Assembly: GCA_029706075.1 (NCBI GenBank)
Contig: JAINUG010000047.1
Location: forward strand, 1,682,675-1,746,674
Source: Aldrovandia affinis
Lineage: Eukaryota > Chordata > Actinopteri > Notacanthiformes > Halosauridae
Reading direction: 5' to 3'
DNA length: 64,000 nucleotides
The position numbers and the translations under genes are program-made. Below the pieces are notes generated by a model. The model was not told the origin of the DNA. It ran no database searches and worked only from the letters and a program-made list of their open reading frames with translations. How positions within the stretch are numbered: position 1 is the first letter of the stretch; every line of letters begins with the position of its first letter. Below, piece by piece: positions 52,099-61,000 of the stretch.

Positions 52099-55000
52099 TT
52101 AGCCCCAGAAAGAGGCTGCATCCAGGCTGCTCTCGATGTTGTGCATGTTTTCCCGCCTCTCCTGGGTCACTAGGTTGGCCTCGCCCTTCTGCAGGCGCCT
52201 TCTTTGGGCAGACTTCTGCTGCTTGGTGAGCTGCTGTTTCACCTTCTGTTTGATCACTTCCTGTAAGGGGAGACAGAGTCAGATCATCAGTGGAGAGTTC
52301 ACCTAACTACATGGATGAGAGCTTACTTTAATACCTCAAAAGCGCACCGACAGTCCTCAGAAAAATGATCTGTGGTTCACCAAACAACTATCATTTAACA
52401 TGTACATCGAATAGGATCTTAATATTACATTACATTACAGGCATTTGGCAGACGCTCTTATTCAGAGCGACGTACAACAAAGATATCAACTATTATTCTG
52501 GAAAAAGTCAGTATTTGAAAATGCATTCCAGGGAAACAGGATATACAAGCTAAGCATTAAAACTACGTAAGTAAGTGGGCCTTAAAAATCAGCATTTATG
52601 AATGCTTGGTTTATTTGATCAAAGATGCACCCCTTGGGGGGTGGGGGATAGTGTAGCGGCTGGTCCGGTGTGGTATGCGCCGCCTGTCAGGGACGCAGTT
52701 CGAAACCCGCATCTCTACCAGACCGGCCCTGGTCGTCAGCTCCGATCGGGCGGCATTTGGCTGTCTGCCCCAGGGGGAGGGGGAGGGTGAGCCGGCTCGG
52801 GTCCGCCGTGAAGCACGGAAAAGGAGTCTCCAGAACGTGGGTGGGCGAATTCCGTCTCGAAGGAGGCGGAGGTCGCTGCCCACAGAGAATTAGCTTGCCT
52901 CGTAGAGACGAGCGACGAACCCGTGTGGGGAGGGTTAAATCGAAATAAATAGATGGTGTAATTGGCTACCAAATTGGGAGGAAAAACGGGGAGAGAAAAA
53001 AAGAAAGATGCACCCCTTTTTAAAAATATTTCTTTTTACAAAATTAGGAGTGTGATTCAGTATAATTTCAGGAAAAGCTGAAGCAGTTTCCTTCAAAGAT
53101 CAACCCTGTGTAGACAATCACAATCATATATAAATTATATTACAATCAAATGCTAGCAACTGGCTCATCAGCTGCACTGAGGTAGTCAAAGCAAAGGGAT
53201 AAAGAGTATTGAGTATTGTTTGTTAGAGCGGTATTTTTTTCCCTGATTTTTGATCTTGAGAAAAAAACCAACAGCTCTAACAAACAATACTCAATACTCT
53301 TTATCCACACTTCACAAATATCTTATTGAAGTAGTTCACCAATTAGAAATATCTTGGTATTTGGCTGGATGACTCCCTAGGCTTCACTATTTACAATAAT
53401 AAGCTTCAAAGCTATATTAAAACAAGGATGGACTTTCTCTACAGGAACAAATCGGTTTCACCCTTTCCTCCAAAATCATGCATACTGCCAATAAGAGATT
53501 ATGGAGATGTTATTTATTGCAATGCTACCAATACAACCATAGCCAAATTGGACACACTTTATCACTCTGCAATTAGATTTGCAACAAGAACCCCCTAATT
53601 TGTATATGCTCTGGGTCTGCTTGACTGCATTTACTGAGTACTTAAGTTAGGGTGTTAGGGTCCAAATTTAAAACGTGTTTTTTTAAACTACATTTGGTGT
53701 GTCATGCGATAGAGCAGTTTCCCAGGAACTCAGAACAATTTGTTTCATGAGAATAGGACCTACCATGGCAGAGATTTGACATTTTTAGCTGCTGGACACA
53801 GGGTCATAAAGGTCACGCAGCTTCATGCACAAGTCAATGGAACACCTGAGTGCCAAAACGGCACCTGATGAACCTGGTTTACCCTAAATTTGTATTCAAT
53901 TACATACTTTGTAGTATAACTTTTGATAGGTTGGTCATATTGTAATGACATTTTCAGGGCTTGTGGAGAATATTGAGCTTGATATGACAATATGTATTTT
54001 ATAATAAAAATATGTATATTGTTGGAATAATATGCACATTAGCACAATCATTTATGCACATATTGAGTATCTTACCCTATCAAGATTAATTACAAAAATA
54101 TCCAATCAATTAATTTATGAAAACTATCAAATTTTTCATCAGCGACATTATCTTCATTCTGCATAAAACAATTTGGAACTAAATCTGTTAAAATTACACA
54201 TATTTGTGGTAATAATAATTTTTAAAAGTTGATTAGTTAAAATCGAAAAAATGTCAAATATGCTAAATGTAGTTGGGTTGCCATTTTGACTCTGTTACGA
54301 CCGGTCAGTCCAGCTGAAACAAATTGGAGACCACAACATAAGTATGGTTTAAAAGAACAAATTTATTAACAAAATAACACAGGTGTGTGTTCAGTGTGTG
54401 AATGTTAAAGGTGATGGATCTGTGTATGTGTGGGGTTGTGAGAATCCAAGGCCAAATATTCTGCAGGTTAAAAGAACAAACAATGAGACCAGCGGGAGGG
54501 ATGGGGACACCATTCATTTCATTTGGTGTGGACATCATGCATTTAATTTAATCTTGAATCCGCAGGTCTCCAATTTGCATGTCTTTAAGCAGAGGGAATT
54601 CTCACATATCCCCAACATCATATTTGATTTTGAACATGCTGTTCATAGCGTTTGATTTTATTTTGGTGATCTGTAACACCGTACCACTGTACCAAAGTGG
54701 AGTTGGCTCCCCTTCCTCACAGCAATTGTGCTGCACCCTCTGCCCAACCAACTTCTCTGGGTCCTCCAACTATTTCAGGAGTGTTTTTTTGTTTTCTCCT
54801 CTCTGCCTTCTCTCTAGCAGCATTTAGCTTTTGAACAAGCTTTCTCTTCTCCTCTGCCAGTCTACCATGTGTTTCCTCCTCGCTGCAATAGGTGAGTACA
54901 GGCTGCAATTCAGGCTCCTCCTCTATTTCTTCTCTTTCTACCTGGTTGATCCTCAGCACCTCAATCAAGTGCAATCTCAGCTCATTCAAACTGTAAACAT

Positions 55001-58000: not shown

Positions 58001-61000
58001 ATAGCAATGGGTTAAAGCAAAGGTATGGGGTGGTGACATTTTAATCAGGAAAAGCTGGAGTATTGGAGATAAAGATTGACATGTCACATCTAGACTAGGA
58101 TGGTTTTATACATACTATATTAGAATCGTATGTAATTATTTGTCAACATGATTTGCAATAGTGAGTGTGTATCTGTGTGGTGGTATAGTGGACCTGTCCC
58201 AAGCAGGCGGATTTTGTCGTTGCTACAAAATCTTTGCTCAGCAAAGATGACGCAGTGACGCTTGCGACGAGTTCGCTGCACAGCGGGAGTTGTAACTCAA
58301 GACTGCTGATGTGAAGCCAAATGAAGCATGACGTAGGTGTAGAGATCTTTCACATTATAAAAATAGTTAACTGCTTGTATTATAACCAGCTTAATGCTAT
58401 TCATCTCCAGAGATCATCTATCGATAGTTTTGTGTAGTCGCTGGTCAAATATAACGGTCTCTGTCTAGCTGACTGTTACACAAACCACTTTTTAGTCAGA
58501 CTACAGTGTTGATAGGCTAACGTTAACTAACGTAACATATATTGAGAGTGGCGATAGGTACACAGCTAGCTACATTTGCGTGTACATTTTCAGTGGCCAT
58601 TAATAAACTCATGAGAGTCTACTACTCTTGTGGCAAATTAGCTATATCCGAGAGTGGCATATGGATTTGGCTCAAACCCCAACAACCTATATATCAATAC
58701 AAAGCTTATGATCCCCTGGTTGTAGCAATGTATTAATTTATTGTCTCTGTCTGTCAGAATATTGGGAAAAAAAAACCCGATGTCTTACCTTGTATTTCAG
58801 CCAATATTCTTCAGATGAACGTTTAACACACTATGTGTATCCGCACACGTCTTGGCAATAAAAATAATATTGAATCCAATCCAGTTATTTGATGTAACAG
58901 TTGCCTCCAAAACAAAATACGACGACACCAGAGTTTGCGACTCGATCAAAATGCAGAAATTCAGCGTAGGTGAACATTCGACACTGACAGTTCGAACTGA
59001 TAACAGGTGAATATCAGAACAAACATAGACAACATATTTGGACATGATAAAAAACACTTATTGATGTATTTTAATGTTGAAATTTAACAATTTAAATGTA
59101 ACAACTACGTGTATACTATTTTCATAGAATTCTGACATAGCGTCCAGGTTTTGTCACGTGACCCTAACGCCCTACTTAAGTTTAAAAAGAAAAACAAATG
59201 GATTTATTTACTCTTGGCCAGGTCGTTGTTGTAAAATAGAATATGTTCTCAATCACATTACCTGGTTAAAGGATTAATAATTAATTAATAAAAAGGGAAT
59301 AAGAAATAAGTATTTGTATTATTATACTATATAACATTATACATTGAAAGGGATCACTTTGGGCCCATTTAGCACAGCTCAGCTGCAGAGTAGTTACAAT
59401 ACATTCCCTTTCATTATGGTGTATGCATTTCCAAGCTGAACAGAAAACGGTTTGTAATTCACTTCAAAAGGATTCCGCCTCTGCTGTTTCACTCCAAATA
59501 AATATCACATGACAGGATGTCGGATGTTAAAGAGCATGCACAATTATTGTGAGAAACACTAGCTCCCCTAGTTCTCTTCCGGCACGCCAGACTGCACCGT
59601 GTCCCAGTCTGCTGGCAGTCAGTGTAACCCGATACCTGCTGGGTCAGAAGACACATGCAGCACAGCCCGCAAACTGCCCATTTCCTGACCCTTGAAAGGC
59701 CCTGCCATGATCTGATCCCATGATCTGCTGGCAGCGTGGCCGGGATCATTGACTTTGCCTCTCCTCTCTGCTGACTTAACAGGCTCAGGGTGCACATTTG
59801 GCTTCAATCTAAATCCTGAAACTGGCAAATCTCATATTACTTATGTATTCATTTGTTTATTTGTCAGGGACATAGCAACCGCATTGTCACAATGTAAAAA
59901 AACAAACATCAGATGCATTGCTTTAAATGTTTATAGCCACTGCCAGCTTTAAGGCTAACTTCCAACACCTGTCCCCAATAAACGACAGGGGAAAAAAGAA
60001 TGCATCAAAAAATAAAGTATGCATCAAAAAATAAACAAACAAAACAAGACGCATGCAGTTTAAAATGTAAATATATTAAAGATATACATACTTCCCTCTT
60101 CCACATCCAACACCAAAACACAAAAAAGACCCAAGTGATGGTATTACTGAGGCTATAAAATAAAAGACTGTTTAGTGTAGATTGTTTAATTCACAGTCCT
60201 CTTTATGAAATAAATCGTATATTCAATAAAATGCATAGCAAATGCATTCCAAATTCAAAATATATGTTTTCAATTAAAGGCCAGAAGAGGCAGAGGATTT
60301 CTCAGAAAATGCCCAAAGTCTAAAAATCCAGAAATGCCCAAATTTCATAAATGCAGAACCTTTATAGTTAAACTCACACCATCACAGGAACCAGGCCTAT
60401 GCATTTCTTTAAGCAAAGTGCCCAGGACCCATTTTACAGTAAAACAATTACTATAATGACCACAGAAATGGAGCCCTCTAAATGAGGCCAATGGCCCAAT
60501 TTTAGGGGGAGTTTCAGTGTTGTAATAAAAAACAGGTGCCCCTGGCTGTACTGACCGGCGGTATGGTAGAAAAGCTGGCCATGCTCCCCATGGTCGTCTC
60601 ACTGGTGGTTCTCCTTCTGTGTTCATTGATGTGATGCAGGCTCTCTTGGTCTCTGTGGAGAGAAGTCACACTGTAATCTCTCAGTGTAGAGTAGTGCCTA
60701 CCTGGACCAAGCAATCATGCTTGAGTAAAGTGGGAATGACCATAATATTTTATTTATTAATTATTATTTAAATATGGAAGATGCCATTCGTTAAAACAAC
60801 CAAGTACACATATAGTGAGTGGGAAATGCCAGTCACCTAAAGGGCTTTTATTGCTATTTTTCAACTGATTTACATATGGGCAACCTGGTCATTTTGGCAT
60901 TCTAACCTAATAACAGTTAGGCTAATAACACCAACATATGCTCTATCCCTCCAAGACTGACTTCAGTCATTGATAAAAGGTAGACAGTCACAACTTCCTA

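Follow-up and report, generated by a model that had tools for sequence, protein, structure and literature searches.

The 64,000-nucleotide stretch of the Aldrovandia affinis genome analysed here (assembly GCA_029706075.1, contig JAINUG010000047.1, positions 1,682,675 to 1,746,674 of the forward strand; hereafter the window) harbours, at positions 53648 to 59174, what is very probably a decayed copy of an autonomous-type class II cut-and-paste DNA transposon with a 7-bp target duplication. This 5527-bp element, bounded by TAGGG and CCCTA, is best read as a CxxH-group DDE transposon whose ends are hAT-like and whose duplication of 7 bp has its like in certain fungal hAT elements; it possibly represents an unnamed major lineage. 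The original prediction, made from the letters of the window alone, had placed a TTAA-duplicating transposon with a transposase-like gene at 53646 to 59175. The element proved to be real, but its true ends lie two bases (left) and one base (right) further in.

The limits of the element were set by alignment of copies from the same genome to its first and last base, the own-genome searches having covered the 1.22-Gb genome to which the window belongs. Every one of the 11 left-end rows begins at the first base of the element (53648), and of the 11 right-end rows 10 reach the last base (59174), L042 being one base short. Owing to this convergence the element is defined as TAGGG...CCCTA, with its gene on the minus strand, while the GT to its left and the C to its right, which had been counted as part of it, are target bases. 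The short inverted ends predicted earlier were recovered as terminal inverted repeats of 15 bp with 14 of 15 positions matching, TAGGG(T/C)GTTAGGGTC, the left repeat TAGGGTGTTAGGGTC occupying 53648 to 53662 on the plus strand and the right repeat TAGGGCGTTAGGGTC occupying 59160 to 59174 on the minus strand. Just inward of the right repeat lies a CACGTG palindrome (59155 to 59160), which is without counterpart in the left repeat, is conserved in all but one of the 11 right-end rows and may be a host-factor site. Own-genome searches confirmed a repeat family: at the DNA level at least 126 pieces matched when 40 of 838 candidates were scored, and the left and right ends each gave 25 matches with the window included (25 of 25 and 24 of 24 candidates scored, respectively), several of which were pieces that stop short of the terminal base. 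A pattern search with the ends as first predicted was uninformative, since the reversed pattern gave 12 matches and the true one 6.

The window copy is flanked by the 7-bp repeat CTTAAGT (53641 to 53647 on the left, 59175 to 59181 on the right), the middle of which reads TTAA. Nine both-ended copies, window included, were present among the fetched loci, and five of these carry perfect 7-bp duplications that differ from one another, namely CTTAAGT in the window, GTAAAGG in L040, CCTTAGG in L043, CTAGTAT in L051 and ATAATAT in the copy on C1761 (L063/L064). For six of the nine, all lengths from 2 to 11 were compared, the pairs of C1761, C1788 and L042 being judged by eye from the printed flanks; the four perfect copies scanned matched in full at length 7 only, and mismatched flank pairs (n=30, from six of the nine copies) were equal at no more than 5 of 7 positions. 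The target consensus over 28 end 7-mers approximates CTWWWRK and is 71% A+T, with TTAA contained in 3 of the 28, near the 9% expected from column composition. The proposed TTAA duplication thus gives way to duplications of seven bases, and copies without TTAA flanks, the very observation that the original prediction had named as fatal to a TTAA-duplicating group, were found.

The pre-integration target could be read from paralogous sequence, as both flanks are halves of one long interspersed nuclear element (LINE), which we take from its sequence to be L2/UnaL2-like. The left flank (53590 to 53647) and the right flank (59182 to 59280), in which the same LINE continues towards its 3′ tail, both lie on the plus strand and were delimited by comparison with uninterrupted copies; the latter were sought in the same genome with the joined flanks (40 of 255 candidates scored, six fetched). 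At the insertion point three of the six (L089, L091 and L092) have a single CTTAAGT, whereas the corresponding bases are CTGAAGT in L087 and L088 and CTTAATC in L090, and CCTTAAGT was likewise already present in three of the six. The TTAA therefore pre-existed in the target, and the 7-bp duplication coupled with this paralogous empty site excludes piggyBac and Kolobok, in keeping with the earlier statement that the element, a bounded class II transposon, is neither.

Several copies are internal-deletion derivatives. One deletion junction, joining element positions 914 and 4029, is common to five copies at different genomic places (L039, L042, L046, L057 and L058), and a second, joining 794 and 4376, is common to L040 and L041, again at different places; such sharing of junctions indicates that the derivatives were moved in trans by an enzyme supplied from elsewhere. 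Nine copies (L039, L040, L041, L042, L049, L051, L052, L054 and L057) contain approximately 260 to 300 extra bases at element position 4997 (window 58644), and as this piece is alike in L040 and L041, the two that were printed, the window copy has probably lost it.

The gene runs on the minus strand from an ATG at 57806 to 57808 to approximately 54551, the span earlier assigned to a gene of about 1,090 codons, but in the window stops and changes of frame interrupt it, and this copy is a pseudogene. An N-terminal coding piece starting at this ATG (57647 to 57808, minus strand) recurs in many copies; a coiled coil had been predicted for the N-terminus. The 490-codon open frame at 55572 to 57044 (minus strand), which was found as predicted with the motifs quoted for it and which has relatives elsewhere in the genome, represents the putative catalytic core with two of three candidate acidic residues. 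The candidate first catalytic aspartate, D137 (GDGTSK; 56634 to 56636), is kept in the same-family copies that cover the region, and the candidate second, D211 (MSDHGP; 56412 to 56414), 74 residues further on, is kept in family copies and in L035. A CxxH motif, C257 to H260 (CKMH; 56265 to 56276), follows 46 residues past D211 and is kept in L034 (CRTH) and L035 (CNAH). The candidate glutamate, within SNVLSEWDF (55484 to 55486), lies outside the open core as first described, in a downstream frame about 263 codons past the CxxH motif, and recurs in the family copies L010, L019 and L022 and in the distant relative L034; all four sites are on the minus strand, and the catalytic roles of the three acidic residues are putative. 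L034, a distant and decayed relative, retains this glutamate (TNMFGECD), CRTH and an AGGD stretch; a query with its C-terminal part was dominated by a common repeat in its tail. The order of motifs fits DDE transposases, while the AlphaFold models are too poor to show three juxtaposed acidic residues. A C/DxxH motif of DDE transposases is described in PMC3706591 and PMC9587614, and for the P transposase its placement after beta-strand 5 is described in PMC8230255; by analogy, the window element may have the same order relative to beta-strand 5.

A further relative, L035, is a 683-amino-acid open frame (C2245:186118-186660 of the same genome and around) that is 28% identical to a portion of the core. 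It keeps the second aspartate and the CxxH motif, is without the GDGTSK and SE..F regions, and as a query matched only itself, one 38-residue fragment and the window. It has the appearance of a host gene that arose by domestication of a transposase related to that of the window. Three scans of viral and prokaryote contigs returned no relatives. Similar proteins are probably widespread in animals, where they would be labelled uncharacterised.

At its C-terminal end the gene span includes a predicted Spin/Ssty (Spindlin Tudor-like) domain (54551 to 54769, minus strand, with one in-frame stop), so that the Tudor-like part of the Tudor/SH3-like C-terminus predicted earlier is weakly upheld. The piece at 54605 to 54769 matched Pfam PF02513 (Spin/Ssty) with an E value of 1.7e-4 and 21.7 bits, under the 25-bit cut-off, and Spindlin-4 in PDB with an E value of 8e-4. 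The uninterrupted domain in copy L028 matched Spindlin-1 over the repeat with a whole-sequence E value of 2.7e-5, while its Pfam match reached only E 0.01. Of the four positions given for the cage of Tudor 2 of Spindlin1 (PMC7864079), three are aromatic in L028 by our own reading of the alignment. The domain of about 73 residues aligns over the full Spindlin repeat, and differs from Spindlin in that a single repeat copy, with a weak score, is found within a transposase.

The layout deduced from sequence resembles that of the CxxH group, which includes hAT, P, MuDR, Kolobok and Dada, and within this group the likeliest placement, which we put forward tentatively, is as a very diverged hAT-like lineage. 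The short TAGGG inverted ends fit the hAT terminal consensus YARNG, and the order of blocks (D, D, CxxH, N-R-x-N and S-E-x-x-F, the last at the candidate glutamate) resembles the hAT layout, with a C/DxxH motif between the second D and the E (CKMH at residues 257 to 260; CRTH in L034) whose flanking acids would be catalytic; the internal-deletion derivatives are a further likeness. The duplication of hAT elements is 8 bp, with 5-, 6- and 7-bp variants described, among them the 7-bp duplications of hAT7 of rust fungi (PMC12730594), and a Repbase paper prints a command extracting hAT entries marked with a 7-bp target site duplication (PMC4455052); the duplication seen here therefore agrees with hAT solely as the hAT7 variant. 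When the glutamate region was compared by hhalign with C-terminal domains taken from three hAT copies that the same genome contains, four family rows scored 23.7 and the two glutamate residues were aligned; none of 250 column shuffles scored above 20.1. This signal, together with the described 7-bp hATs, leads us to conclude that the element works like a hAT-type element; owing to the failed Pfam test for the hAT dimerisation domain it is not filed as hAT. Dimer_Tnp_hAT (PF05699) gave no match to the glutamate region at a limit of E 10, although HMMER filters drop most matches above an E value of about 0.1 despite that limit, and a control hAT copy of the same genome scored 5.4e-23 in Pfam. 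Unlike hAT elements, moreover, the window element shows no BED-like zinc finger on the coding strand by a simple pattern, and carries an additional Spindlin-like C-terminus. That the element truly belongs to the hAT superfamily, as a highly diverged member that duplicates 7 bp, is plausible, albeit at somewhat less than even confidence.

Several results weigh against a hAT-like DDE transposon with 7-bp duplications and a Spindlin-like domain. The duplication is imperfect in four of the nine both-ended copies, namely L041 (5 of 7), the copy on C1788 (L048/L062; 4 of 7), L055 (3 of 7) and L042 (0 of 7). The core and the glutamate region had no convincing match in Pfam, NCBIfam or PDB sequences, the best E value of at least 0.085 being noise, and both AlphaFold models (the core and a 164-residue piece, each from a single sequence) had a mean predicted local distance difference test score of 39 and were not used. 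D137 is unsupported by distant relatives, as L033 aligns an asparagine, L035 lacks the region and in L034 the region was not recovered, and the alignment with the decayed L034 does not preserve D211. The ratios of nonsynonymous to synonymous substitution rates between the window core and L010, L011 and L013 (0.72, 0.51 and 0.76, respectively; L012, which had been read on the wrong strand, was left out) count towards a coding past of the core, but are only mildly below 1 and are values without a significance test. The hhalign probability with four family rows was 22.8%; adding L034 lowered the score to 17.1 and the probability to 2.4%, a score reached by 1 of 250 shuffles, and when the rows were restricted to the window and L034, the score was reached by 34 of 250. 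With hAT as the one superfamily compared in this way, the signal is suggestive only and may not be specific to hAT. For the core itself no likeness to hAT pieces could be detected, 49 of 100 shuffles giving scores at least equal, and the single-repeat matches to Spindlin are weak, the best i-Evalue being 0.86 (L028).

The element could instead represent a superfamily of its own among the CxxH-group DDE transposons, one as yet without a name, which we regard as a serious possibility though less likely than not. The core and the glutamate region of the predicted transposase-like gene found no convincing match among Pfam and NCBIfam profiles or PDB sequences, and the combination of TAGGG termini, a 7-bp duplication, the D-74-D-46-CxxH-about 263-E arrangement and a Spindlin-like domain was not met in the literature passages compared. 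The literature search, aimed in part at other families, recognised no paper among those listed, from titles and abstract openings, as describing this element, subscription journals being mostly outside its reach. However, the search covered one genome with relatives, and the missing Pfam match also fits a diverged hAT. The fullest version of this proposal seems on balance unlikely: an unnamed DDE lineage of superfamily rank that would combine TAGGG ends and 7-bp duplications at CTWWWRK with a D-74-D-46-CxxH-about 263-E core, a C-terminal Spindlin-type histone reader steering integration via methylated histones, and at least one domesticated host gene (L035 on C2245).

Membership of P, Dada, KDZ/Zisupton or MuDR is improbable. 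The 6- to 7-bp duplications of Dada (PMC3706591) fit in length, Dada also shares the C/DxxH motif (PMC3706591, PMC8869645), and the 4- to 10-bp duplications of IS256 and MuDR taken together (PMC10045372) include 7 bp. An N-terminal CCCC and a C-terminal CCHC zinc finger are described for Dada (PMC3706591). Dada-U6 and Dada-U1 are without terminal inverted repeats, and Dada elements with defined termini target small RNA genes (PMC3706591), whereas the window element has 15-bp inverted repeats and is inserted at an AT-rich site in a LINE, with no Rfam match at the flanks of the window copy, which was the copy scanned. Zisupton and the zebrafish P element Pdre2 make 8-bp duplications (PMC12730594, PMC10983969), as compared to the 7 bp seen here. 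The Pfam KDZ profile matches two other loci of the genome and not the window core or glutamate region, the TNP-like RNase H profile of P matches one other locus and not the window core, and MuDR gave no match in the Pfam scan, the one test made for it. P elements usually duplicate 8 bp, with 7 bp reported for Galileo (P), as also for the Mutator-type Tm1.

The TTAA-duplicating group near piggyBac or Kolobok that was first proposed is very improbable. In its favour, TTAA adjoins both ends of the window copy and CxxH also occurs in Kolobok (PMC9587614); against it, the GT before TAGGG lies outside the element in other copies, few ends carry TTAA at the window offset (2 of 12 left, 1 of 12 right) and the termini are TA..TA, not 5′-RR. 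The likeness to Kolobok lies in a CxxH-group DDE enzyme, with TTAA present at the window locus by chance (PMC9587614, PMC6004289); in place of the TTAA duplication and 5′-RR..YY-3′ termini of Kolobok the copies show 7-bp duplications, a paralogous empty site and TAGGG..CCCTA, and a simple pattern for the THAP zinc finger was absent from the coding strand of the broken window copy, with one match on the other strand. The TTAA duplication and CC(C/T)T termini of piggyBac (PMC2872659) are likewise absent from the window element. A Pfam scan of the core yielded no match to a piggyBac-type catalytic profile, which Pfam presumably includes.

Further candidate repeats were noted elsewhere in the window. 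Rfam recognised a UnaL2 LINE 3′ element at 52435 to 52488 on the minus strand (55.9 bits) and, weakly, a tRNA at 30096 to 30153 (31.4 bits), perhaps part of a short interspersed nuclear element. The sequence at 53197 to 53306 matches its own reverse complement (83% over 110 bases), and is perhaps a small inverted-repeat element.

On the preferred interpretation, that of a CxxH-group DDE transposon with hAT-like ends, the transposase would bind the 15-bp TAGGG ends and excise the element, which would then be joined at AT-rich sites approximating CTWWWRK to the two strands of the target, cut at points 7 bp from each other, with repair leaving the 7-bp duplication; the C-terminal Spindlin-like domain may tether the enzyme to methylated histones. 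The sequence comparisons demonstrate the ends, the duplication, the paralogous empty site and the deletion derivatives, along with the candidate residues in family copies and, for some of them, in distant relatives; fold, catalysis, oligomerisation and the choice of chromatin by this domain are features that we infer. A TTAA label would place the family under the wrong mechanism, as a 7-bp staggered cut is not the TTAA integration of the piggyBac or Kolobok type. With its ends, duplication and gene layout corrected, the group can be defined in a way open to testing, although Pfam does not recognise its catalytic part. Should the Spindlin-like domain prove real, this would be a DNA transposase equipped with a reader of methylated histones, and chromatin-guided integration could be put to a direct test.

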